This document shows positions 367 through 57,187 of a stretch of 57,495 nt of DNA, piece after piece. The stretch's first letter is position 1, and every line of letters begins with the position of its first letter. The stretch comes from a virus, in the IMG/VR virus record IMGVR_UViG_3300044742_000040, positions 1-57,495 of that record; one strand, written 5' to 3'. The notes under the pieces are model-generated. The model saw only the letters and a list, made by a program, of their open reading frames with translations, did not search any database and was not told the origin of the DNA. The position numbers were made by a program, and so were the translations under genes.

Positions 367-415
367 GTGGAGTCGGCAACAAGGGTGTCGGCCCAGACAA
401 GGGAGGTAAGACGGT

Positions 416-2119: not shown

Positions 2120-2135
2120 CCAAGGGAGATACAAA

Positions 2136-2874: not shown

Positions 2875-3037
2875 TAGCGATATTGTGGATGCCATTCAAG
2901 ATTTCGGTATCGCAATCCTGATCTTTTACGTGATTCTGATTCACAACAAAATGTTGGATATGCAAGATGATATCGAGCGTATCCTAGAATCCAAATGGTT
3001 TCCAGAACCAAGGGAGGTAAGTGAAGATGAAGTATAA
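2861..3037 (+). CDS. One-helix membrane protein, 58 aa
   Basis: ATG at 2861 inside the end of the previous gene. Residues 16-28 (FGIAILIFYVILI) form a single membrane helix, followed by an amphipathic charged helix (MLDMQDDIERILESKW). The 3' end contains the CCAAGGGAGG ribosome site of the next gene. It is one of at least eight tiny membrane proteins in this genome. The role is unknown. Confidence 0.6.
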   Translation: MPTVSSDIVDAIQDFGIAILIFYVILIHNKMLDMQDDIERILESKWFPEPREVSEDEV

Positions 3038-3419
3038 GGAAGCACAGGAGCTTGCGGCAGGTCTGCGTGAGCTTGCAGATTTCGTGGATGCTCATGGAGT
3101 TGAGCTTCCCACGTTTACGCTTAATTCAACGTACAATTTTTTGTACGATGACTACAACGGTCGTACTGCGAAAGAGAAGGCACGTATCTGTGCCAAGACT
3201 CTCGCTAAGGGTGGCCGCGCCGATAAGAACTTTGAAGGTAACTATCTTGAGTTGTCTCGGAACTTCGGCCCGATCAAGGTTGAGTTCAATGTCGCACGTG
3301 AGCAAGTCTGCAACAAGCGTGTTGTGGAAGTTATTGAGCATCCCAAGCGCGTGATTAAAGCATGGAAAGAGGAAGTTGTCGAATGGGATTGCATCGATCC
3401 CCTGTTGAAAGCGAGCTAA
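3027..3419 (+). CDS. Unknown protein, 130 aa
   Basis: The ATG at 3027 was chosen because CCAAGGGAGG (3008-3017) sits 9 bases before it; the in-frame GTG at 3021 is too close. The product begins with a long helix (KEAQELAAGLRELADFVDAHG) and continues as a mixed alpha/beta chain. No family was recognised. Confidence 0.7.
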   Translation: MKYKEAQELAAGLRELADFVDAHGVELPTFTLNSTYNFLYDDYNGRTAKEKARICAKTLAKGGRADKNFEGNYLELSRNFGPIKVEFNVAREQVCNKRVVEVIEHPKRVIKAWKEEVVEWDCIDPLLKAS

Positions 3420-5426: not shown

Positions 5427-5606
5427 ATGTGGCAACTCAATTATCATAACCGTCCTGACTTTCTCGATTATTTCGAGGACGAGCAGGACTACGTGGATGC
5501 CATGTTCATTCTCATTGTCTACCAGAACTTCGGCATCCTGCTTCGGCAGGATATGCTGATGCAAGATTGGGAGCCGACGGGCGACCATAGGGGTGTGGCT
5601 GAATAA
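5427..5606 (+). CDS. Unknown protein, 59 aa
   Basis: ATG 8 bases after CGGAG. The product is rich in aromatic and acidic residues (FLDYFEDEQDYVDAMF) with a short hydrophobic stretch (FILIVYQNFGILL), perhaps an amphipathic helix. No family was recognised. It is followed by 259 bases without a clear gene. Confidence 0.6.
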   Translation: MWQLNYHNRPDFLDYFEDEQDYVDAMFILIVYQNFGILLRQDMLMQDWEPTGDHRGVAE

Positions 5607-5629
5607 CGTCAGCACGATGGCGTAAAGCA

Positions 5630-5861
5630 CTACCGGCTCAGACATGAGTTCTCCGAATGGGGGAAACGGTAGGTTTCGGGGTTATTGATTATCTAATGGT
5701 AATCGTGCCCCCGGTTGTGGGTAAATCCATAATCCCACCATCCCACTAATTTCTAAGTTCGGGGGTAATGACGAGTACGGAGTTATGGCGACTAGCTCAG
5801 CGGCCAAGTCCATGACCGAGGAAAGGCTTTGCCCCCGAAGTTTGTGAGCGACCAAGGGAGG
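5630..5861 (+). promoter_or_regulatory. Switch-like structured leader with mutually exclusive helices
   Basis: The stretch 5607-5865 holds no good gene but many inverted repeats. CTACCG (5630-5635) pairs with CGGTAG (5667-5672), and GTGGG (5717-5721) with CCCAC (5734-5738). The core CGGGGG (5760-5765) can pair either with CCCCCG upstream (5708-5713) or with CCCCCG downstream (5832-5837), but not both. The extended ribosome site CCAAGGGAGG (5852-5861) follows at once. This is the architecture of a regulatory leader controlling the gene at 5866; the ligand or trigger is unknown. A 20-codon ORF at about 5784 is possible but unsupported. Confidence 0.5.
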
Positions 5862-5865
5862 TTAC

Positions 5866-6126
5866 ATGCTCACGTGGGACGAGACAAAAGCGGCTGTGCA
5901 TGAGGCACAGACAACTAGCAAAGAGGATTTTGAGCGGCATCTTGCAGACTATATCGTGCAGGATGCAGTCGGAAAGCTCATCGATGATTACGTGAAGATC
6001 ACCTTTGCGCGGTACGGTGGAGTCAATGAGGAAACTGCCGAAATCGTAGCTCACGAAGCTGCAATATTTATGACCGGAGTGCAGGTTGGCTGGTACATGG
6101 CCGAGCATGCATTCAAACGATCATGA
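5866..6126 (+). CDS. Unknown protein, 86 aa
   Basis: ATG 4 bases after CCAAGGGAGG. The product is mostly helical and acidic (WDETKAAVHEAQTTSKEDFE). No family was recognised. It is translated behind the folded leader at 5630-5861 and its stop overlaps the next start. Confidence 0.7.
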   Translation: MLTWDETKAAVHEAQTTSKEDFERHLADYIVQDAVGKLIDDYVKITFARYGGVNEETAEIVAHEAAIFMTGVQVGWYMAEHAFKRS

Positions 6127-8620: not shown

Positions 8621-8736
8621 TCCGCAATCGAAAATGGCTATGGCTTGTGCCCGCCATATTCGTACTAGATTGGATAATTGGCCTGATCCTCATAGCTTGG
8701 GAAATCAATCTACTTAGAAAGATGCTTGACAACTAG
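8617..8736 (+). CDS. One-helix membrane protein, 39 aa
   Basis: ATGA overlap with the previous stop. A basic N-terminus (RNRKW) is followed by one membrane helix (LWLVPAIFVLDWIIGLILIAW) and a basic tail. No ribosome site is visible, in line with leaderless translation from the promoter at 8579. It is the last gene before the sRNA and transglycosylase region, so a holin-like or regulatory membrane role could be considered. The promoter at 8726 lies in its last codons. Confidence 0.6.
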   Translation: MIRNRKWLWLVPAIFVLDWIIGLILIAWEINLLRKMLDN

Positions 8737-8754
8737 GTAGCTTCATGCTAACGT
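8726..8754 (+). promoter_or_regulatory. Sigma70-type promoter of the sRNA
   Basis: TTGACA (8726-8731), 17 bases ending in TGC (an extended -10 TGn), and TAACGT (8749-8754). The expected start is 8760-8762, the first base of a hairpin. Promoter, 7-bp hairpin and terminator occupy only 100 bases. Confidence 0.75.
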
Positions 8755-8759
8755 GCGGT

Positions 8760-8825
8760 GTGTACCTCCCTTGGTACACGCTCAGGAGAGAGTCAGGGGT
8801 ATTCCTGGCTCTCTCCTTCGTTTTA
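8760..8825 (+). ncRNA. Predicted sRNA with anti-Shine-Dalgarno loop
   Basis: GTGTACC (8760-8766) pairs with GGTACAC (8773-8779), presenting TCCCTT in the loop. With the stem breathing, CCTCCCTTGG (8765-8774) is an exact complement of CCAAGGGAGG, the extended ribosome site of many genes in this genome. A terminator follows: AGGAGAGAG-T-CAGG (8784-8797) with CCTG-G-CTCTCTCCT (8804-8817), 14 bp with one wobble, then TCGTTTTA. It resembles in principle sRNAs that block ribosome sites through UCCC loops. The alternative is an attenuator in front of the transglycosylase gene. Confidence 0.7.
8784..8825 (+). terminator. Rho-independent terminator of the sRNA
   Basis: A 14-bp stem including one G-U pair, a 6-base loop and a TCGTTTTA tail. 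It is one of the strongest terminators in the window, and ends a transcript only about 65 bases long. Confidence 0.85.
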
Positions 8826-8841
8826 TGCAGATTTACAAATC

Positions 8842-8937
8842 CACGGGGCATCGATAAAAGGGTGGACACTCTCCCCCCTCCCCTCCGCGTACCCCCATGC
8901 GCGGAACCCCTGGAAGGGTGTCTACCCTAGCCCCGTG
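8842..8937 (+). ncRNA. Long hairpin RNA with C-rich single strands (6C-like)
   Basis: CACGGGGC (8842-8849) pairs perfectly with GCCCCGTG (8930-8937). Inside it AGGGTGGACAC (8859-8869) pairs with GTGTCTACCCT (8918-8928) with one G-U. The apex carries an 18-base pure pyrimidine run ending at 8886 and a hairpin CCGCG/CGCGG (8885-8904) with a CCCCC loop; another CCCC run follows. C-rich loops of this sort define the actinobacterial 6C sRNA class, which binds G-rich ribosome sites. Homology to 6C is not claimed; the likeness is architectural. Confidence 0.6.
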
Positions 8938-8942
8938 AGGTC

Positions 8943-8963
8943 ATGCAATCTAACAGGAGGTAG
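8943..8963 (+). other. Possible 6-codon upstream ORF ending in AGG AGG TAG
   Basis: ATG at 8943 opens a six-codon frame (MQSNRR) whose last two sense codons are AGG AGG, which together are the ribosome site of the next gene. Its TAG at 8961-8963 lies 5 bases before the proposed CTG start at 8969. Termination here could feed reinitiation. Its own ribosome site is weak. Confidence 0.4.
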
Positions 8964-8968
8964 CAGTC

Positions 8969-9562
8969 CTGCTAGCTTTCGCTGCCATACTAGTCGTACT
9001 ACTGCTTACCAGTAGTGGCGACGGCCAACAGCAAGCGTCACAGGAAAAGGTCAGGGTAATCGCTAACGGTACTAACGTAAGTAGCGTTAGGCAGGAATGC
9101 AAGTCGGCTGAAAAAGCCATAATTTACTACCGTGGTAAGACATGGAGTTACCAAAGGAAACTAGGTGAGACTCCGCTATCGACAAATCATCCCGAACGTA
9201 AAAAGAACGCTTGTGCATATAAGCGTTTCGTTGTCGGGAATTGGCGCAGACTTGCCAAAGCATACAGACAAGAGTACGCAAAATGGGAGTATAACTACGC
9301 ATGGTGGAAATGGCTCCCCTCCAAATGGCAAAGGATAGCTCACTGTGAAACTAGTAAAGGACACTACGTACCCGGAGACTGGCGACACAACAGTGGTACC
9401 TATCAAGGGGCATTCGGTTTCTACTACGGCACCTGGGACGCATACAAGCCAGCCGGTGCGCCTTCCGAAGCCTATCTCGCCACTCCACGGCAACAGTACC
9501 AAGCTGCCCTTAACGTCTATTCTGACCACGGCTACGGTGCGTGGGGATGCGGCGGGGCGTAG
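8969..9562 (+). CDS. Secreted transglycosylase-fold (Rpf-like) protein with CTG start
   Basis: 197 codons. The reading frame is open from 8954 to 9562 but holds no in-frame ATG, GTG or TTG. CTG at 8969, 8 bases after AGGAGG (8955-8960), is the best start. It gives a signal peptide (LAFAAILVVLLLTSSGDG), a Cys/Lys-rich middle, and a C-terminal domain of the resuscitation-promoting-factor/transglycosylase type. That domain has CETSKGHYVPGDW with the catalytic Glu, YQGAFGFYYGTWDAY, and an ending of HGYGAWGCGG. Such proteins cut peptidoglycan. It lies far from the main lysis cassette, in the early region, so it may remodel the wall early, exclude other phages, or be virion-associated. The family call is good, the start an inference. 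Confidence 0.75.
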   Translation: MLAFAAILVVLLLTSSGDGQQQASQEKVRVIANGTNVSSVRQECKSAEKAIIYYRGKTWSYQRKLGETPLSTNHPERKKNACAYKRFVVGNWRRLAKAYRQEYAKWEYNYAWWKWLPSKWQRIAHCETSKGHYVPGDWRHNSGTYQGAFGFYYGTWDAYKPAGAPSEAYLATPRQQYQAALNVYSDHGYGAWGCGGA

Positions 9563-9622: not shown

Positions 9623-10087
9623 GTGTCTGCGGTACCCGACCTAGAGGAGTTTTGTACCTCCTGTGGTGGTTGGGTATCGTATCTTCATTTCAACTACGAT
9701 ACAGGCTGGTGTATAGATTGTTCAGGTTCGATAGATCACCGAGCAAAGTGCATTCACTGTGGCAATGTACTAATCGGAAGCGACCTGTACCGCACTACGT
9801 GTCATACTTGTCGGCAAGAGCTTTGGTTAGAGAAACATGGCGACACGATAGAATTACTCATGATTGTCAGAGGCTACAGTTTTGCACAAGCAAGAGAAAC
9901 CGTAACAGAGCAAGCCCGTCCGATATGCCAAGCCTGTAATAAACCTATCAAGGGTGCCAAGGACGGGGCGCTGTTCCACAAAAGAAATGAGAACAACACT
10001 GCCTGCCATGCAGCGTATCTCAAATTCAAAGTGTTAACGAAGTCGGGCTTGACAATCACGGAAGCTCTTGCTATCATCCGTGGTTAA
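9623..10087 (+). CDS. Multi-zinc-finger protein, 154 aa
   Basis: GTG start at 9623. Cys pairs occur as CTSC, CIDC, CIHC, CHTC and CQAC, plus a final His/Cys near residue 130, enough for two or three zinc sites. The C-terminal half has a helix pair (AYLKFKVLTKSGLTITEA). It probably binds nucleic acid. It lies just upstream of the SNF2-type helicase, whose promoter is inside its 3' end. Confidence 0.7.
   Translation: MSAVPDLEEFCTSCGGWVSYLHFNYDTGWCIDCSGSIDHRAKCIHCGNVLIGSDLYRTTCHTCRQELWLEKHGDTIELLMIVRGYSFAQARETVTEQARPICQACNKPIKGAKDGALFHKRNENNTACHAAYLKFKVLTKSGLTITEALAIIRG
10049..10077 (+). promoter_or_regulatory. Sigma70-type promoter of the helicase gene
   Basis: TTGACA (10049-10054), 17 bases, TATCAT (10072-10077), in the last codons of the zinc-finger gene. 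The expected start is near 10084, placing the ribosome site CCAAGGGAGA (10093-10102) at the front of a short leader. Confidence 0.6.
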
Positions 10088-10105
10088 CCGTACCAAGGGA
10101 GAAAG

Positions 10106-11614
10106 ATGACAGAGCTATTGTTTGAGGATTTGATATCTGACGACCAGTATGAAAAACGAGATTGGCAAGAGAAGGACTTGCGTTACCTCTCGCCGATGCC
10201 ATACTCGGCCAACTGGTCACAGATGGGTTGTTTCAAAACCAGCACAGGATTGTGGCTGCTGGAAAAGAAACGAGTAAAGAACGCTCTTATCATTACGTCC
10301 AAGATGGGCAAGGGTGCGTACTTCTCGGACTTCTATAAGTGTCTGCCGGAATCATGGGAACTGTACAACCTCGGTATCCATGATGCCACGCTACGTATAG
10401 AGGACTTTGAGAAGGATACCACTATCAATGAACTGCTGTACACGATCAAGAGTGGACGGCACAACTACCCAATGGTGGTACTCGCACACTATGACGTGTT
10501 TACTACTGCTGCCAATACCAACTCTGCAAAGAAATCGAAAGATGGTATTGGCATCTTCGACAAGCTGAAGACAATCAAGTGGGATATGATTCTACCTGAT
10601 GAAGCTCACAGGTTGAAGAATCCTAAGACACAATGGACTAGGAATATCAAGAAACTCAAGGCTGAGAATAAGCATATCATGACCGGGACAGGCTTTGTCA
10701 ATAATCCTGCCGAAATGTGGTCACTGCTGAACTTCTTGAACCCTAACGAATTCTCTAGCTATTGGGCATTCCGTAACTACTTCTGCGATCAGTGGATGGA
10801 CGCACGTGGATTCAGATTCATACGTGGTATCCTCCCGCATAGACTTGAGGAGTTTCGTGCCCTACGTAAGAGACTTGGCCCTCGGCATACGATGGCTAAG
10901 GTTCACAGAGGTATTGCGAAGCCAATCGAGAGTGTTCACCCGGTTGAACTCAACGCAACACAGCGCCGTATGTACAATGAAATCAAGACGGTGCTGCGGA
11001 CGATGGATCAGAAGGGTGCCGATCTAACGTCACCGAACGTCTTGAGTCAGCTTAATCGACTGAGGCAGATTTCGGTAGCGACACCGAATGTACTCGGCCG
11101 TGAATTTAGTCAAAAGCAGAACCGTATGGTTACGGATATCGAACTGGTCGAGCCGTCGTCCAAGCTAGATGATGTAATGAAGATTCTTGAGGAGCTAGAC
11201 GAGCCTGAGCAGAAGGTGGTTGTGTTCAGTAACTTCAAAGACCCGCTCAAGCTACTCAAGGTCAGGTTGGATAAAGCCGATATCGGCTACCTACACTTGG
11301 AGCAGCATCATAGTGAATCAGAACGATACCGAATCTGGCACGACCTATTTCGTAAACCCGAATACCAAGTGTTTCTGTCTACCCTCGCATTGGGTGGCGA
11401 GTCTATTAACCTATCCTGCGCTCAGTATCTCATATTCCTCGACAGGTCTTGGTCGCCAAAGGATATGATGCAGGCAATAGGTAGAGTCTACCGACCAGGC
11501 CAACAGCATGCTTGTGAGGTTATCTACATTAACGCGGATCGCACGGTAGATTCCTACGTCAAGACCAAGCTCGATACCAAAGGAAGATGGTTCAATGAAA
11601 TCTTCGGAGACTAA
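10106..11614 (+). CDS. SNF2-family DNA helicase/ATPase
   Basis: 502 aa. Superfamily 2 motifs appear in order: motif I MGCFKTSTGLWLLEK, motif II LPDEAHRLKN (DEAH), motif III MTGTGFVNNPAEMW, then in the second domain FLSTLALGGESINLSCA and motif VI QAIGRVYRPGQ. This is the SNF2-like layout common in phage replication regions. It would use ATP to translocate on DNA, probably in replication or recombination. The N-terminus carries LFEDLISDDQYEK, a variant of the LFEEIS motif. ATG chosen 3-4 bases after CCAAGGGAGA. Confidence 0.92.
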   Translation: MTELLFEDLISDDQYEKRDWQEKDLRYLSPMPYSANWSQMGCFKTSTGLWLLEKKRVKNALIITSKMGKGAYFSDFYKCLPESWELYNLGIHDATLRIEDFEKDTTINELLYTIKSGRHNYPMVVLAHYDVFTTAANTNSAKKSKDGIGIFDKLKTIKWDMILPDEAHRLKNPKTQWTRNIKKLKAENKHIMTGTGFVNNPAEMWSLLNFLNPNEFSSYWAFRNYFCDQWMDARGFRFIRGILPHRLEEFRALRKRLGPRHTMAKVHRGIAKPIESVHPVELNATQRRMYNEIKTVLRTMDQKGADLTSPNVLSQLNRLRQISVATPNVLGREFSQKQNRMVTDIELVEPSSKLDDVMKILEELDEPEQKVVVFSNFKDPLKLLKVRLDKADIGYLHLEQHHSESERYRIWHDLFRKPEYQVFLSTLALGGESINLSCAQYLIFLDRSWSPKDMMQAIGRVYRPGQQHACEVIYINADRTVDSYVKTKLDTKGRWFNEIFGD

Positions 11615-14483: not shown

Positions 14484-14530
14484 CCCTTGACTTCGCACCC
14501 TGTCCCTGATAGGGTGCGAAGTTCCAAGGG
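14484..14530 (+). promoter_or_regulatory. Hairpin that hides the ribosome site of the nuclease gene
   Basis: CTTCGCACCCT (14491-14501) and AGGGTGCGAAG (14511-14521) are perfectly complementary around a 9-base loop. The flanks continue the pairing: CCCTTG (14484-14489) with CAAGGG (14525-14530), which is the core of the ribosome site CCAAGGGAGA (14524-14533). In the folded state the site is buried. No T run follows, so this is not an ordinary terminator. Confidence 0.65.
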
Positions 14531-14554
14531 AGAGCAATACCTGAACGGAGGGTG

Positions 14555-15826
14555 ATGGCACCCGAAACTGAAATCATTACAAGTACCCCGGACGTTCCGT
14601 CGAAGTGGGATATTATCCCTATCCACGGATCGGACGTTGCAAGTTACAAACGATGCAGACGGTATTGGGATTGGACTAGTCCTAGCCGGAACAACCTACG
14701 CAGGAAAGTGGAGATTCACGGTGTCAACCTACCTCTGTGGTTTGGCACGGGAGTCCACTTCGCACTAGAGCAATACTACGATCCCATCCTACGTCACGAT
14801 CCCGTCGAGTCTTTCAAGACGTGGTTTGAATACCAGTGGGAAGGCGGGATGGTCACAGAGGATTGGCTTGAGCGTACCTATGACGTGAACCCTCGTTATG
14901 GTGGCGACTGGATTGGCGATCCCGGTGACGTAGACACGCTTCACAAGACGTGGCATATTCGCGGTCTAAAGGAAATGCTGCCAAACGTTGAACTTGTCCA
15001 AGAGGATTTCGCTGCACACAAAGAACTCGGCATCGGGATGCTTACCTACTATAAGGAGTATGCCGAGAAGAATGACGAGTTTATTGTGGTCGCCGCTGAG
15101 TCATCGTATTCCATCCCCCTCGGGTTTGAAGCGGTGGACATACGTGAGGACAGCCCCAACTATGGACACAAGAGTGAGGTACACGCACGTGGTAAGCGTG
15201 ACGCTATCATATTCTTCCCCGAACAGAATAAGTATGGCATCATCGACCATAAAACTGCTGTAAGAATTGACGAGGACTACCATAAGAAACTAGAGAAGGA
15301 TGAACAGGTAAGCAACTATCTGTGGGCCACGATGCAGGAAGCAAAGCTGCATGACTATCCGTGGTCAGGGTATCTGGTAGATCGCGTGATCTACAATGCG
15401 CTCAAAAAGAACTTCCCGCATGAACCTACCGTACTCAAGAATGGTATGTTGTCAGTCGATAGACAGAACGAAGGCACTACGGCTGAGCTATTCCAAGCAG
15501 CGATCATTGGCAACGAAGACCGGGAATACTGGTTCCGTCACAATGAGAAGGCTCAGTCGTACTACTCGTACTTGTGTGAAATGGCCGATAGTCTGTTTAT
15601 CGAACGGACACCTGTAACGCGCAATAAGTATGAGGTTCAGGCGACAGGCGACCATCTGGTTATGATCGCTAAGGAAATGATTAGCGAGCCGACGATCTAC
15701 CCAAATCCCACAGGGGAGTTTCGCTGTATACAGTGTGCATTTCGCGCACCATGCATTGCATCCGACGACGGTAGCGATTGGCAAGGTATGCTCGCTGACG
15801 GTTACGAGGTTAACCGTGATCGCTAA
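14555..15826 (+). CDS. Cas4/RecB-like PD-(D/E)XK exonuclease
   Basis: 423 aa. Nuclease motifs: GTGVHFALEQYY (motif with His), GKRDAIIFF (Asp) then YGIIDHKTA (DxK), and DEQVSNYLWA (QxxxY). One Cys near the N-terminus (YKRCRRYW) and three at the C-terminus (CIQCAFRAPC) match the iron-sulfur cluster of Cas4/AddB-type nucleases. It lies one step upstream of the Sak4 and DUF669 genes, a usual phage recombination set. The start is uncertain: ATG 14555 and GTG 14552 are only 0-2 bases from CGGAGGG. ATA at 14537 stands 4 bases after CCAAGGGAG, the spacing used at 10106. Confidence 0.85.
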   Translation: MAPETEIITSTPDVPSKWDIIPIHGSDVASYKRCRRYWDWTSPSRNNLRRKVEIHGVNLPLWFGTGVHFALEQYYDPILRHDPVESFKTWFEYQWEGGMVTEDWLERTYDVNPRYGGDWIGDPGDVDTLHKTWHIRGLKEMLPNVELVQEDFAAHKELGIGMLTYYKEYAEKNDEFIVVAAESSYSIPLGFEAVDIREDSPNYGHKSEVHARGKRDAIIFFPEQNKYGIIDHKTAVRIDEDYHKKLEKDEQVSNYLWATMQEAKLHDYPWSGYLVDRVIYNALKKNFPHEPTVLKNGMLSVDRQNEGTTAELFQAAIIGNEDREYWFRHNEKAQSYYSYLCEMADSLFIERTPVTRNKYEVQATGDHLVMIAKEMISEPTIYPNPTGEFRCIQCAFRAPCIASDDGSDWQGMLADGYEVNRDR

Positions 15827-22274: not shown

Positions 22275-22489
22275 AAGGATACCCACGTACTGTATGGAAT
22301 GAGGACAATCCCGAGCTTCACTATGTTGTCAGCGGTCTATGCAAGAAGTGTGCCCGTATCGACCGGGGCAATTGGGATCGTCACTGGATATACAACATCT
22401 TTACCACTAAGATGCACTTCACAGGAGAAGATGAGTACACCCTGTGCGGTGTATCGGCAACGGAACCGCAATGGCTGTGGCAACTGTAG
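22262..22489 (+). CDS. Small Cys-containing protein, 75 aa
   Basis: ATG in the overlap with the membrane peptide. It contains CKKCARIDRG and one later Cys (YTLCGVSA), with many Trp/Tyr. It may be a small zinc-binding protein. It overlaps the polymerase gene start by 19 bases. Confidence 0.6.
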   Translation: MVDLEGYPRTVWNEDNPELHYVVSGLCKKCARIDRGNWDRHWIYNIFTTKMHFTGEDEYTLCGVSATEPQWLWQL

Positions 22490-24933
22490 CGCCTAAAGCA
22501 CCGGGCGCTCTATGCCATGAGTGTCCACTTGCAGACGCGCAATGCGTGAAGACAAAGAAGCCCACTCTGCATCCTGTGCGCGGTGCAATCGTTTCACGCT
22601 CACCCGGTAGACCCGAAGTTATCGCGGGAGAACCATTTGCAAGTCAGTACGGCAGTGGCAAGATTCTTGATTACCTACTAGGAATGAATGGGGTGAAGCG
22701 TGAGCAAGTCCTCCTCACCAACGTGGTACTCTGTGTTGCCCCGGAAGGCAAGATTCCTCCGGAAGCGATACGAGCATGCGCTCCTCGTCTTAGCGCCGAA
22801 CTCGCAGATATCGATACAGTTGTCGCGGCAGGAGATGAAGCAGTTAAGCTCCTTATTGGACGAGGCTCTATCGGACGATATAGGGGATATCGTCATGAAA
22901 TTAACGGACGGACGGTGGTGGCAACTAACAACCCTGCAATCGTCCTCCATGACGACTCCAAATTTCCCGACCTCAAGAGAGACTTCCAAAGAGCGTTCAA
23001 TCCGCTCCCTCCCCCCACCCTGCCACGAATAGAGGTAATCGAAGATGCCAGAGAAGCCGACGATATCCTCCGACAGCTATCAGACTCCGAATACATTGCT
23101 TGCGATATTGAGTCACGTGGAGGACTTACTCACAAAGCGACCCTTATATCCCTTCAGCTTGCAGATAGAGGAGATACTGCCTTTGTCATCGGAGAACGGG
23201 GAGGTATTTGGGACGATACCCGTTTCATTCAAGATCGACTACGGCCGTACCTTACCAATCCTGATAGAAAATACATCTGGCATGGAGGAAAGTTCGATAC
23301 CAAAATCCTCCGACATACATACGGAATCCAAGCAAGGGTAGATCATGACACTATGTTACTGTCATACGCGCTGGACGAACGATCCGGAACAGATGAAAGA
23401 GTGGGAGTACATGGGCTTGATTATCTCCTCATGGACACTTTCGGATGGCCGCACTACTCTAGCCCTGCTGTGGAACGTGCCAAGAAAACAGGAATCGTAG
23501 AAGACTATGACGAATTCTACGAGTATGCCGGTAGGGATGCCGGTGGTACTTTCCAGTTGTTCCAAGAACAGTATCCAAGGGCTGAGTCCGATGACGTTCT
23601 TAAACCATACAACCATCTATTGCTACGTGGTAACGCTTTCTGTACTGATGTAGAGCTAGACGGCATGATCTACGATGCCGACCGCGCTGGCGACATACAT
23701 GAGTTTGAGGTACTACCTGAGCTAGAGGAAATTCAGAAGCAGCTACAGCAGCATGCAGGCAATCCGTTGCTCAATGTCGCATCGCCTAAGCAAATGTCGC
23801 ATCTATACTATGACGTGTGGGGAATCAAGCATGCCATGCAGAAGCGTAAGCCCCTCAAGAATATGCCCAACCCAGAAAGGTCGATAGATGACTCAGCGCG
23901 TAAAGAGATTCTTGAAGGGCGGTTTAAGTTTCGTGGTGATACCGTCACGGAGAGAAGCGGAAATATCGTTAGACAGGTATCTGCGCTTGATGCGGACGAA
24001 AGAAGGACGTTCTATATTGGGTTTACGGAACTCTACGACCGATATCAAAAACTTGTCAAGCAAGACGGAACCTACCTCGTCGGACTTATCGCAAGAGCAG
24101 AGCTAGATGAAGATTCTAGGATTTACACTCAACTCAATCTACATGGCACAAACTCTGGACGGCTATCCTCATCGAAACCAAACCTTCAGAATATCACGCG
24201 GACAAAGAATGATCTCCCTGATATTCGTAAGCTATTCAGAGCCAGCCCAGGACGCCAGATTGTACAAGCCGACTTCTCTCAAGCGGAACTACGCTGTATC
24301 GCTCAATTTTCGGGGGACAAAGAGCTTACACGCATTTATCGTGACGACCTCTCGCTTCATCGGGAGACTGCAACCAGATTTTTCGGAGCAGATTACAAAC
24401 CCGAGGAGTACCAAACCTGCAAGAATGTAAATTTCGGGGTATTCTACGGTCAGAGTGCCGAGACATTCCAAGAGAAGCATGGAATCCCGAAGCGGCTAGC
24501 TGAGCCATACATAGCATGGGTATGGAAAACGTTTAAAGGCGTAGAAGAATGGGAGAATGAGGTAAGACGTGAAGTCAAAACCAAGCATGTACTCGTTTCA
24601 CCTTTCGGGAGAAAAAAGCGGTTCCATCTACTTACACGTGAAAACCTCCAAGCCGCTTTCAGGGAAGGAATTAACTTCTATCCGCAAAGCACTGCGTCCG
24701 ACCTCACCCTCTGTTCTGGCATTCGGCTTGCTGATGAAATCGATCGATCCAGAGCTTCAATTGGTATTCTGGTTCACGACTCAATCGTTGCAGACGTTGA
24801 GGAAGCGTACATCGAAGAATATTCCACCATCTGCGAACAAATAATGTCCTCTGTAGCCCTTGACGAACTAGGCTGGACACTTCCATTCAAGGCAGAATTC
24901 GGTGTCGGCCCAACATGGGGTGAAGCTAAGTGA
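22471..24933 (+). CDS. DNA polymerase I (family A) with N-terminal UDG-like domain
   Basis: 820 aa. Residues 1-175 resemble a uracil-DNA-glycosylase domain: CHECPLADAQC, PGRPEVIAGEPFASQYGSG, LLTNVVLC, and the APRLSAEL helix. The GE-PG-ED catalytic pattern of family 4 is incomplete, so activity is doubtful. Residues 190-370 are a 3'-5' exonuclease: CDIESRG, HGGKFDTKIL and YAGRDAGGT. The rest is family A polymerase: QADFSQAELRC (motif A), CKNVNFGVFYG (motif B) and VHDSIVAD (motif C, Ser in place of the usual Glu). Similar fusions are known in SPO1-type phages. It replicates the phage genome. Confidence 0.93.
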   Translation: MAVATVAPKAPGALCHECPLADAQCVKTKKPTLHPVRGAIVSRSPGRPEVIAGEPFASQYGSGKILDYLLGMNGVKREQVLLTNVVLCVAPEGKIPPEAIRACAPRLSAELADIDTVVAAGDEAVKLLIGRGSIGRYRGYRHEINGRTVVATNNPAIVLHDDSKFPDLKRDFQRAFNPLPPPTLPRIEVIEDAREADDILRQLSDSEYIACDIESRGGLTHKATLISLQLADRGDTAFVIGERGGIWDDTRFIQDRLRPYLTNPDRKYIWHGGKFDTKILRHTYGIQARVDHDTMLLSYALDERSGTDERVGVHGLDYLLMDTFGWPHYSSPAVERAKKTGIVEDYDEFYEYAGRDAGGTFQLFQEQYPRAESDDVLKPYNHLLLRGNAFCTDVELDGMIYDADRAGDIHEFEVLPELEEIQKQLQQHAGNPLLNVASPKQMSHLYYDVWGIKHAMQKRKPLKNMPNPERSIDDSARKEILEGRFKFRGDTVTERSGNIVRQVSALDADERRTFYIGFTELYDRYQKLVKQDGTYLVGLIARAELDEDSRIYTQLNLHGTNSGRLSSSKPNLQNITRTKNDLPDIRKLFRASPGRQIVQADFSQAELRCIAQFSGDKELTRIYRDDLSLHRETATRFFGADYKPEEYQTCKNVNFGVFYGQSAETFQEKHGIPKRLAEPYIAWVWKTFKGVEEWENEVRREVKTKHVLVSPFGRKKRFHLLTRENLQAAFREGINFYPQSTASDLTLCSGIRLADEIDRSRASIGILVHDSIVADVEEAYIEEYSTICEQIMSSVALDELGWTLPFKAEFGVGPTWGEAK

Positions 24934-38497: not shown

Positions 38498-39064
38498 TTA
38501 TAGACCTGCCGCTGATCGTGGTAGAAAGAAACCTCCACCGCCGACTGCCCTAAATGAATGTCGAGTCTTTACACCACCGGGAGTAGGATACAAGCGAATG
38601 ATATCATCGAACCATTCCCCAAATAGGCCATAGATGGTAGCAGCGGATTCATCCGAAAGCCCAAGAAATGCACGTTGGGGGAGAGAGTTCTTTCTATCCA
38701 TAAGTCCTGATTCATGAGCTAGACCGTAGTGTGGAAGATTCCCTGTCTCATAGAAAACTGTATCATTAGTAATCAGTGTTGCACTTGTAGAAATGGCTGC
38801 ACGAAACAGATCACCTGACTGCTTTAGAATACCCTCATTCGGATATGCCATCGCCGTAGGAGTATACGACTGTGACCAGTCCTCCCACTTCTTGCCCTGG
38901 GGATCAGTTTCAGTTTCAAACCTTCGCTGAATATCCGCACGTACAACCGAACCTGCCGCTGCTATAGGAACTACAGTATTCTCAAGCAGCGATGCTTGCA
39001 TCATAAACGTGTTAGCATAGATAGTGGGATCAGGTTCCCACGTGAAGGTAATTGCAGCAGTCAA
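38498..39064 (-). CDS. Phage virion morphogenesis (Mu gpG-like) protein, 188 aa
   Basis: The pattern ADIQRRFETETDPQGKKWED, ILKQSGDLFRAAI, HYGLAHESG and PQRAFLGLSDES is that of the phage virion morphogenesis family (PF05069, Mu gpG). Members act in head-tail joining or tail completion. Confidence 0.82.
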   Translation of the reverse strand: MTAAITFTWEPDPTIYANTFMMQASLLENTVVPIAAAGSVVRADIQRRFETETDPQGKKWEDWSQSYTPTAMAYPNEGILKQSGDLFRAAISTSATLITNDTVFYETGNLPHYGLAHESGLMDRKNSLPQRAFLGLSDESAATIYGLFGEWFDDIIRLYPTPGGVKTRHSFRAVGGGGFFLPRSAAGL

Positions 39065-39494: not shown

Positions 39495-39875
39495 TTACTT
39501 AACTCCAACCGGCTTGGTTAGTTCTGCTTCCTCGTCGGCAGGTGGATTGATCGGTGCAGGCTGTTGCAATGCAAGCTCAAGCAGCATGTCCTGATTAATC
39601 TCGCCACCCTGTGATAGCCGTGAGAGAACAGCCTGAGTAGGAGAAGTAACGTCATCAGCCTCCTCGGGCATTGGATAGGGACGAATAGACCCACCTTCGA
39701 TATATCTGTCCCATTCCTCATCCGAACACTTGAGCTTAGCCTTTGTAACCTTTTCACCAGCAGGAGTGATATTCCTGCTAACTACAACAGTCTTCTTCAC
39801 ACCTTGCAGGGCCGTGTCAATTTCCTTGACTTCGCCCCCGTTATAGATAGGACTCCAAACATAGAAATCCGGCAT
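39495..39875 (-). CDS. Unknown head-region protein, 126 aa
   Basis: A compact beta start (FYVWSPIYNGGEVKEIDTAL) is followed by a helix and a Pro/Glu-rich tail. It lies directly after the capsid gene. A head-associated minor protein is likely. No family was recognised. Confidence 0.65.
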   Translation of the reverse strand: MPDFYVWSPIYNGGEVKEIDTALQGVKKTVVVSRNITPAGEKVTKAKLKCSDEEWDRYIEGGSIRPYPMPEEADDVTSPTQAVLSRLSQGGEINQDMLLELALQQPAPINPPADEEAELTKPVGVK

Positions 39876-39890
39876 CTGTATCCTCTCCTA

Positions 39891-53888: not shown

Positions 53889-54126
53889 GTTTACACCCCC
53901 ATGTAGTTTAAGAACAACGGTAGTGGACTATTTGGCTCTGCGACGAAAGAATGCTTCTTAAATCCAAGACTTTCGGCCAGGCTTGACGGATGGTCGTGTT
54001 GCCAATCCTGCAAATATGCAATTACCCTGCAAATGACCACTATGCAAGTAATAGTTTTGCTCAACCATGCATAAATGCAATGATTCGTCTGTGGCACAGA
54101 ACGCAACCACAACCGAGGGAGGCTCC
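53889..54126. promoter_or_regulatory. Divergent control region with TGCAA repeats
   Basis: The region between the leftward and rightward operons has CCTGCAAAT at 54007-54015 and again at 54026-54034 (19 bases apart), ATGCAATTA at 54016 and ATGCAAGTA at 54042, and a further TGCAA near 54076. The reverse complement ATTTGCAGG appears at 55046-55054. This looks like an operator array for a regulator of both directions. No canonical -35/-10 pair was found for the late operon. Confidence 0.5.
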
Positions 54127-54516
54127 ATGCAGACGCTACGGCGCTTGCAAGTTCGCTCCTTGCATGCTCACGGCCGCAAGAGGGTCAACGCTGATAGTTG
54201 GCTCACGGCGCTTGAATCGCGCTATGCGGAGAACATGCAGGCAACCGGGCAGATTGTCCGGGCAATGGCTCACGAATCGGACAATGACGGACGCGGGACG
54301 GTTGCGGACTCCGCGCTAGGGGTCAACGCAACCGAGGTTAGGCACAGTGAGCGATGGCTAGGCAAGCGGGACGAAAGCAAGGATTACGGTTGCTATTCGA
54401 TCCGGCCGGATGGCACTAGGGTGCCATTCGAGCCAAGCTCCGACGACAAGCCTAGGCAAGCTCCGAAACCAGCACCAGCCAAGCCGTACACCAGACTCCG
54501 GAAAACCTACCTTTAG
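54127..54516 (+). CDS. Unknown basic, GC-rich protein, 129 aa
   Basis: ATG 4 bases after CCGAGGGAGG. An Arg-rich start (QTLRRLQVRSLHAHGRKRVN) precedes a helical middle and a Pro/Lys-rich end (DDKPRQAPKPAPAKPYTRLR). It is the first rightward gene after the divergent region and has its own strong terminator, so it is a one-gene unit, possibly a regulator or host-takeover factor. Its GC content is higher than nearby genes. Confidence 0.65.
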   Translation: MQTLRRLQVRSLHAHGRKRVNADSWLTALESRYAENMQATGQIVRAMAHESDNDGRGTVADSALGVNATEVRHSERWLGKRDESKDYGCYSIRPDGTRVPFEPSSDDKPRQAPKPAPAKPYTRLRKTYL

Positions 54517-54574: not shown

Positions 54575-54634
54575 CCAAGGAGGCACGGCGCTACATACGC
54601 GCAAAAGCGACCGTAAATTTCGTGCCAAGGGAGG
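54575..54634 (+). promoter_or_regulatory. Folded leader of the 54643 gene
   Basis: GGCACG (from 54582) pairs with CGTGCC (54621-54626), enclosing TACGCGC-AAAA-GCG...CGTA. An AAGGAGG lies at its 5' side and the extended ribosome site CCAAGGGAGG (54625-54634) overlaps its 3' arm. Folding would restrict access to that site. Confidence 0.45.
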
Positions 54635-54642
54635 AACACAAA

Positions 54643-54867
54643 ATGCGTGGTAATAGCACCATGAAATCTAAGCGTGTTCATGGTCAGTCTGCGAATACGA
54701 TCATGAATTTGCAGATTGCGATGGAACACTGTAAAGAGCCGGGATGCAAGAATCCCGTAATTGCAACACGTAACCCGAACGGGGTTACGAAAATCCGGGC
54801 ATGCATCGAACACGTCTGCACAGGTGTGAATCCGCGTAGGAAAGTCGAGCTTCCCTACTACCACTAG
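54643..54867 (+). CDS. Small Cys-containing protein, 74 aa
   Basis: ATG 8 bases after CCAAGGGAGG. It contains HCKEPGCKNP and ACIEHVC, a likely zinc site, within a basic chain. It may bind nucleic acid. It is the last gene before a 301-base structured gap. Confidence 0.65.
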   Translation: MRGNSTMKSKRVHGQSANTIMNLQIAMEHCKEPGCKNPVIATRNPNGVTKIRACIEHVCTGVNPRRKVELPYYH

Positions 54868-55790: not shown

Positions 55791-56009
55791 ATGATCACCA
55801 TAGAGGAAGCCAAACAACTTCAGCACCGTGATAGATTGATTGACTCACGGGATGGCGCACGTTGGTATGTAAACGGTAGAATACAAACATGGAAGCGTGA
55901 CGCTAGTAGAATCCGCGTTCCACTAAAGCATGGACTCTACCAGTACGGTGCGCTGCATGATTCTGACTTCACGAATGGAGTCTGTGCGTACATGACCAAG
56001 GAAGGGTGA
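55791..56009 (+). CDS. Unknown protein, 72 aa
   Basis: The ATG follows GGGGGT. The chain is mixed alpha/beta with many basic and aromatic residues (RDGARWYVNGRIQTWKRDAS). No family was recognised. Confidence 0.65.
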   Translation: MITIEEAKQLQHRDRLIDSRDGARWYVNGRIQTWKRDASRIRVPLKHGLYQYGALHDSDFTNGVCAYMTKEG

Positions 56010-56010
56010 A

Positions 56011-56247
56011 ATGTTTACGAGTCAGCACTACAACGCGGTTGCGAAAGTCTTGCATGACTCGCGCAATGCCGCGATAGAATCGGAGAATTCGACACAGGCT
56101 GTACCGTACAAGTTTTGGTATGACCACGTGTATACGCCTATCGTGAAACTCTTTGAGGAAGACAATCCTCGCTTCTCCACTGTGAGCTTTTGCTATGCGG
56201 TGGCGACCGGCGAATACGTGTCGAGGCGAATGGACAAGAAATCATGA
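56011..56247 (+). CDS. Unknown protein, 78 aa
   Basis: Starts one base after the previous stop, with AAGGAAGGG upstream. Helical, with an aromatic centre (VPYKFWYDHVYTPIVKLFEE). It is coupled to the next gene by ATGA. Confidence 0.6.
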   Translation: MFTSQHYNAVAKVLHDSRNAAIESENSTQAVPYKFWYDHVYTPIVKLFEEDNPRFSTVSFCYAVATGEYVSRRMDKKS

Positions 56248-56928: not shown

Positions 56929-56950
56929 AGAATCTACCAAGGGAGGCAAC

Positions 56951-57187
56951 ATGTCATTTACTCAGGGTACATTCGCTGAGCGTCCTTTGCTTGGTTGGCC
57001 CGGTATTACTATGCGTATGACTTTGATGCATGGTAAGTTCGTTGTCACATGTACCAACGACAACACAGGGCAGGCTAAGTTTCTCTACGAGGGCACAGAG
57101 TTCGGTAGCGCAGCTACCTGCTATAAGCATCCGTTCGTGACTTCGTTCGATGAAGTCAGTGAGATTACTGATCTGGTCACAGCCTAA
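56951..57187 (+). CDS. Unknown protein, 78 aa
   Basis: ATG 4 bases after CCAAGGGAGG. A beta-type chain (MTLMHGKFVVTCTNDNTGQA) with two Cys. No family was recognised. Its translation is probably governed by the folded leader. Confidence 0.65.
   Translation: MSFTQGTFAERPLLGWPGITMRMTLMHGKFVVTCTNDNTGQAKFLYEGTEFGSAATCYKHPFVTSFDEVSEITDLVTA

Follow-up and report, generated by a model that had tools for sequence, protein, structure and literature searches.

The window analysed here, an IMG/VR phage contig of 57.5 kb (57,495 nt, 50% GC), is likely to encode a trans-acting antisense sRNA of ~65 nt that would mask the SD sites of a phage early regulon. Comparative evidence strongly supports this sRNA-regulon interpretation; i.e., the loop of the predicted RNA and the ribosome sites of the genes that it would regulate match each other in the window and change together in related phages.

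Non-structural genes occupy the plus strand of the window (1-26.4 kb, plus the final part from about 54.1 kb onward), with the structural (late) genes on the minus strand. The Rpf-type transglycosylase domain of the lysozyme gene located after the sRNA points to a host that is probably actinobacterial. At 22471-24933, the window encodes a fusion of a family A DNA polymerase with a 3'-5' exonuclease and, at the N terminus, a uracil-DNA glycosylase-like domain. Helicase and sRNA searches of cultured-phage collections returned no close relative, the genome contig collection yielded no prophage relative, and literature searches turned up no description of such an RNA from a phage of this kind. Relatives were gathered through an SNF2 helicase search, giving eight and then fifteen independent IMG/VR contigs, to which a second helicase profile added none; pattern-scan returns L010, L014-L016, and L018 were discarded, as they either contained the promoter pattern by chance or were unrelated. 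Gene starts were assigned with a simple home-made caller and not with Prodigal.

The predicted sRNA locus and its complementary sites in the window

A stand-alone sRNA of ~65 nt would be encoded from position 8760 to about 8824. The anatomy proposed for this locus in the initial annotation was borne out: a sigma70-like promoter is followed by a 7-bp hairpin and then by a second, strong hairpin resembling a terminator (Table 1); the promoter and terminator are consensus and structure matches that are kept as structures in relatives. Folding of positions 8760-8824 gave -39 kcal/mol (z = -8.3), with none of 200 shuffles equally stable. Though described earlier as a 14-bp terminator, the second hairpin was counted at 15 pairs, and it is probably the 3' end of the sRNA. 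The 5' hairpin carries CCTCCCTTGG, the perfect complement of CCAAGGGAGG. The earlier claim that the loop is this exact complement thus holds for the 10-nt match itself but not for the loop proper, as only 6 nt are unpaired and the remainder of the 10-nt complement belongs to the two uppermost base pairs of the stem. At the Rfam gathering threshold, neither the sRNA locus of the window nor those of seven relatives gave a match, and with E values up to 5, positions 8700-8980 returned only a chance microRNA match.

With at most one change allowed, CCAAGGGAGG has 11 matches on both strands of the window, compared to 2.27 +/- 1.44 expected and a maximum of 7 in 100 shuffles. The sole antisense copy is that in the sRNA hairpin (8765-8774). 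The other 10 of the 11 are in the sense orientation before plus-strand early genes and comprise, as initially annotated, four exact copies and six with one change, and no site of this type is found in front of the late minus-strand genes. Nine of the 10 sense sites are 3-9 nt before an ATG; the exception, at 14524, lies ~20 nt from its start, with a second SD nearer. In addition, CCAAGGGAG, the core of CCAAGGGAGG, outnumbers every other 9-mer upstream of start codons in the window. When all genome hairpins were compared with all start regions, the sRNA hairpin was among the top, beaten only by the reverse strand of a target site itself, and complementarity to the loop extends over 9-13 contiguous nt at seven genes (ten sites, unlinked genes). 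Among one-base variants in the interior of the site, four of five are A>G changes opposite a U, in which a G-U pair is kept. Among the products of the putative targets are a DUF932 protein and an SNF2 helicase, along with numerous small early proteins without assigned function. Upstream of the target gene at 5866, a manA RNA motif (Rfam RF01745, 59.3 bits) is present at 5568-5748, and it is absent at the gathering threshold from the relatives searched.

Table 1. Positions of the predicted sRNA elements, proposed target sites, and associated features (window coordinates unless a phage is named)
Feature	Position	Strand	Remarks
sRNA promoter TTGACA-N17-TAACGT	8726..8754	+	-35 at 8726-8731, -10 at 8749-8754; extended form TGCTAnCGT
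5' hairpin GTGTACC-TCCCTT-GGTACAC	8760..8779	+	7-bp stem, 6-nt loop TCCCTT
Antisense site CCTCCCTTGG	8765-8774	+	top of 5' hairpin
Terminator-like hairpin and T-rich tail	8784..8825	+	15 pairs at 8784-8817, then TTCGTTTT
Lysozyme gene, Rpf/transglycosylase-like	8969..9562	+	downstream of sRNA; CTG start; non-target, site AACAGGAGG
Target site ACAAGGGAGG	397..406	+	one change; before DUF932 gene 416-1423
Target site CCAAGGGAGA	2120..2129	+	one change; before gene 2136-2369
Target site CCAAGGGAGG	3008..3017	+	exact; before gene 3027-3419
Target site CCAAGGGAGG	5852..5861	+	exact; before gene 5866-6126
Sigma70-like promoter TTGACA-N17-TATCAT	10049..10077	+	just 5' of helicase target site; also in G001, G002, G008
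Target site CCAAGGGAGA	10093..10102	+	one change; 12-nt complement GTACCAAGGGAG; before SNF2 helicase gene 10106-11614
Possible target site CCAAGGGAGA	14524..14533	+	one change; upstream of PDDEXK nuclease gene 14555-15826; own promoter at 14487
Target site CCGAGGGAGG	54113..54122	+	one change; G-U compatible; before gene 54127-54516
Target site CCAAGGGAGG	54625..54634	+	exact; before gene 54643-54867
Weaker target site CCAAGGAAGG	55996..56005	+	one change; before gene 56011-56247
Target site CCAAGGGAGG	56937..56946	+	exact; before gene 56951-57187
Reverse SAS copy, Anaya (L063)	39871-39883		
Reverse SAS copy, CrimD (L064)	38836-38848		

Predicted loop-site duplexes amount to -15 to -23 kcal/mol at targets, before the cost of opening the sRNA stem, and to -7 to -11 kcal/mol at non-targets; the 16S anti-SD at the same target sites gives -9 to -15 kcal/mol. 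As the site includes the SD core, part of the loop match is to be expected anyway. The repeated site could be no more than the SD preferred by this group of phages, with the hairpin constituting a chance anti-SD-like sequence or a decoy for 16S rRNA, the 3' tail of which has an ACCUCC-like sequence: the site indeed contains GGAGG, and the hairpin contains ACCUCC. We nevertheless consider this explanation very improbable. Matches of at least 9 contiguous nt to the 16S tail are found at 0-1 genes per main-group carrier, versus 3-10 genes for the loop (in the larger contigs). Moreover, the CCAA/CAGG/GTAACA flanks lie outside the anti-SD or match it poorly, yet co-vary with the loop (see below), and neighbouring non-target genes use AAGGAG.

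The predicted RNA and its sites in related phages

In ten related lineages (L002/L003, L005, L006/L007, L008, L009, L019, L020/L021, L022, L023, and G014), the sRNA is found at the same place, between an upstream gene block and the Rpf-like lysozyme gene. Helicase identity in this series is 90% for L002/L003, 83% for L005, 73% for L006/L007, 71% for L008, and 67% for L009, with L023 at its end (63%); G014 is a more distant carrier (61% for DUF932, 54% for the helicase). All carriers other than G014 keep a TTGAC(A/G) -35, a TGCTAnCGT-like -10, and a C-rich loop exposed by the 5' hairpin, with the complete TTGACA-N14-TGCTAnCGT arrangement kept in L002, L003, L005, L006, L007, and L009 and slightly changed in L008, L019, L020, and L023. 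The second strong hairpin is likewise kept in almost all relatives, the lowest-energy fold of the longer L019 stretch preferring another pairing. The T-tract that follows this hairpin is weak in several relatives (L005, L006, L020, and L023), rendering termination and the existence of a discrete RNA uncertain. Relatives without such a hairpin (G012, G013, G015, G016, and G018-G020) lack the site set and display ordinary, unlike sites; with the exception of G014, relatives at 46-62% DUF932 identity contain neither site set nor hairpin in the available sequence.

At least three lineages carry a changed loop (CTCCCTGG; CTCCCCGG; TGTTACCTCCC), and in each the phage's own ribosome sites change to match (CAGGGAGG; GGGGAGGTG; GGGAGGTAACA). 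In phages with the CTCCCTTGG loop (the window, G001, G002, G006, G007, G008, and G010), the sites read CCAAGGGAGG. The L006/L007 loop, CTCCCTGG, has lost one T, and in L006 five genes have [A/C]CAGGGAGG-type sites (two of them ACCAGGGAGG), with matches of 8-13 nt and no occurrence of CCAAGGGAG. For L022, the hairpin is ACACCTCCCCGGTGT with loop CACCTCCCCGG, and GGGGAGGTG is the site of the gene orthologous to window gene 6123; this contig has a single site of at least 9 nt. The G014 hairpin, CTGTTACCTCCCAAACGTAACAG (with TGTTACCTCCC), occupies the syntenic place after TTGACA-N17-TAACAC; the corresponding sites, GGGAGGTAAC(A), number 11 in the sense orientation and 1 in the antisense, and the conserved block now lies on the opposite side of the SD, a shift shared by the hairpin. 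When loops were compared with gene starts in a cross-matrix, the phage's own loop was best in G003, G006, G010, and G014. Sites of the DUF932 and helicase orthologues switch along with the loop, and AAGGAG-type sites are kept almost throughout by two non-targets, gene 5005 and the lysozyme gene. A relative in which the loop changes while the sites stay the same, i.e., the observation that would speak against the initial proposal, was sought; changed loops were always accompanied by matching site changes where gene content sufficed. No called gene with a matching site was found in L008 (4.5 kb, too few genes).

The stem also displays compensatory change. Across six distinct UCCCUU-loop hairpins, the six stem pairs are 94% paired, with both-side changes in four of the six; the covariation score of 0.756 compares to 0.235 in shuffles (0/500) and breaks down once the columns are shifted by one. 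Some stem variants have G-U pairs, and in the UCCCUU set no variation is seen in the loop or in the two C-G pairs that close it, with the rest of the stem varying freely. Loop-site co-variation, compensatory stem changes, and the keeping of both promoter and second hairpin thus support the sRNA and matched site set originally put forward.

An alternative at the level of DNA would have CC-N5/6-GG palindromes, the sRNA hairpin among them, serve as operators that bind a phage repressor at promoters, including that of the sRNA. Phage stoperators provide a precedent for scattered, oriented sites, and the sRNA copy and some target sites do lie just 3' of sigma70-like promoters: TTGACN-N17-TANNNT occurs no more than a few tens of nt from target sites, at 10049 and 14487 in the window, as well as in G001 (11234, 15236), G002 (33722, 41946), G008 (21895), and G010 (4258). 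For a regulon controlled by an sRNA, promoters directly 5' of several target sites would give part of the gene set very short 5' UTRs. Operator function strikes us as quite improbable, given that the sites occupy the SD position, in most cases 3-10 nt from the start, and have a single orientation save for the sRNA copy, that a DNA site would have no need of compensatory and G-U changes in the stem arms flanking this copy, and that the conserved block in G014 moves across the SD together with the hairpin; it would also leave the adjoining second hairpin unexplained.

The adjacent lysozyme gene

The lysozyme gene appears to start with CTG (window and G001) or TTG (several other phages), following a conserved TGTAAnCTAACAAGGAG-like leader (window 8954-8974). 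Between it and the sRNA lies a second conserved RNA element (window 8836-8945; L002 8773-8893; L005 8617-8760; L007 635-780; L020 1013-1110), in which a long outer stem is clearly re-paired with a different sequence in each relative, around a C-rich interior (CUCCCC runs). This element is absent in L008 and L009, and a similar one is present elsewhere in the L020 genome.

The position of the sRNA is relevant to a further possibility, already entertained in the initial annotation, that the hairpin and terminator-like stem are a cis-acting leader or attenuator controlling read-through into 8969-9562, matches to other genes being incidental. The RNA lies directly 5' of an Rpf/lysozyme-type gene in all carriers, G014 included. 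An imperfect terminator tract in several carriers makes read-through plausible, and in L008 and L009 a few tens of nt separate the terminator from the SD that follows. Against this, changes in the loop are not mirrored by the ribosome site of the lysozyme gene, which is AACAAGGAG/AACAGGAGG in nearly all; the sites of distant genes have followed the loop in three or more independent changes, and an incidental match would not co-vary in this manner. A purely cis-acting role is thus weakened and, in our view, unlikely, though the constant adjacency to the lysozyme gene leaves it some weight. The RNA may also act as a leader for this gene alongside its proposed role in trans.

Proposed mode of action and comparison with known systems

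Together, the sRNA and its sites probably constitute a phage-internal translational switch, a reading based on the concerted change of loop and sites in related phages. In this mechanism, the UCCCUU exposed by the 5' hairpin would make a loop-first (kissing) contact with AAGGGA, with pairing then spreading into the top of the stem until 9-13 nt were paired with the SD region. Such pairing at about ten early mRNAs would block ribosome binding in trans across the whole group, the expected effect being repression. This might serve to silence or adjust early-gene expression at about the stage when the adjacent lysozyme gene is used; as its ribosome site differs, the lysozyme gene itself would be exempt.

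Staphylococcal sRNAs of the RsaE/UCCC-motif type pair a UCCC loop with the SD sites of several mRNAs; they differ from the window sRNA in being cellular, in having metabolic targets, and in not being known to have a matched, repeated ribosome site. The mycobacterial sRNA 6C/B11 is similar in being actinobacterial, in having C-rich loops, and in repressing several mRNAs with a G-rich 5' UTR/SD; B11 represses eccB4, and loss of this repression required mutation of both B11 loops (PMC10470900). However, 6C/B11 is host-encoded and uses two C-tract loops against host targets, whereas the window sRNA is phage-encoded and would use one loop, with a 10-nt sequence-specific match, against targets in the same phage; the 6C (B11) Rfam covariance model gave no match to it at the gathering threshold. 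The RNAs OOP, sar, aQ, DicF, and 24B_1 are likewise phage-encoded and affect translation or message stability through base pairing, but each targets one or few messages, often as a cis-antisense RNA; none is described in the available part of PMC12197685 as acting on a matched set of ribosome sites in the same phage.

The nearest parallel in architecture, a possible one for which the evidence is mixed, is provided by the Start-Associated Sequence (SAS) of Cluster K mycobacteriophages, GGGATAGGAGCCC, a highly conserved extended ribosome site found in one orientation at 11-19 non-structural genes, with one reverse copy away from gene starts in four K1 phages; in 2011 the authors, who also mention stoperators, left undecided whether RNA or protein binds the SAS (PMC3203893). 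Similar start sites are present in cluster EF Microbacterium phages (PMC7302621). The SAS differs in sequence from CCAAGGGAGG. An arrangement like that of the window, in which numerous sense sites at starts are accompanied by a single antisense copy within a hairpin loop, is seen in K1 phages but is changed or absent in other phages examined. The loop of a long hairpin holds the reverse copy in Anaya, CrimD, Amelie, Shaobing, and LastHope; this strong K1 hairpin, with a 10-nt loop, is near the right genome end and is often unannotated, and 149 phage records match the region that contains it. In Bryler, Hammy, and SirPhilip, the loops are different with the SAS unchanged. The expectation that the SAS would follow the loop in Bryler and Hammy thus failed, for which reason the parallel is kept as a lead only; the right arms of TM4, Pixie, and AnnaSerena yielded no antisense SAS copy. 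That actinobacteriophages possess a general class of self-directed, lock-and-key sRNA/ribosome-site regulons, with the Cluster K SAS as another case, is a tentative and somewhat doubtful proposition.

The timing of phage gene expression is usually explained by transcription. Here, a phage seems to own a translational regulator RNA together with a matched code in the ribosome sites of a gene set, and this code shifts in step across relatives, a form of lock-and-key co-evolution seldom seen among the sRNAs of bacteria or phages. The system thereby suggests orthogonal RBS/sRNA pairs that could be put to use in the laboratory, and it offers a testable hypothesis on the start-associated sequences conserved in other actinobacteriophages.
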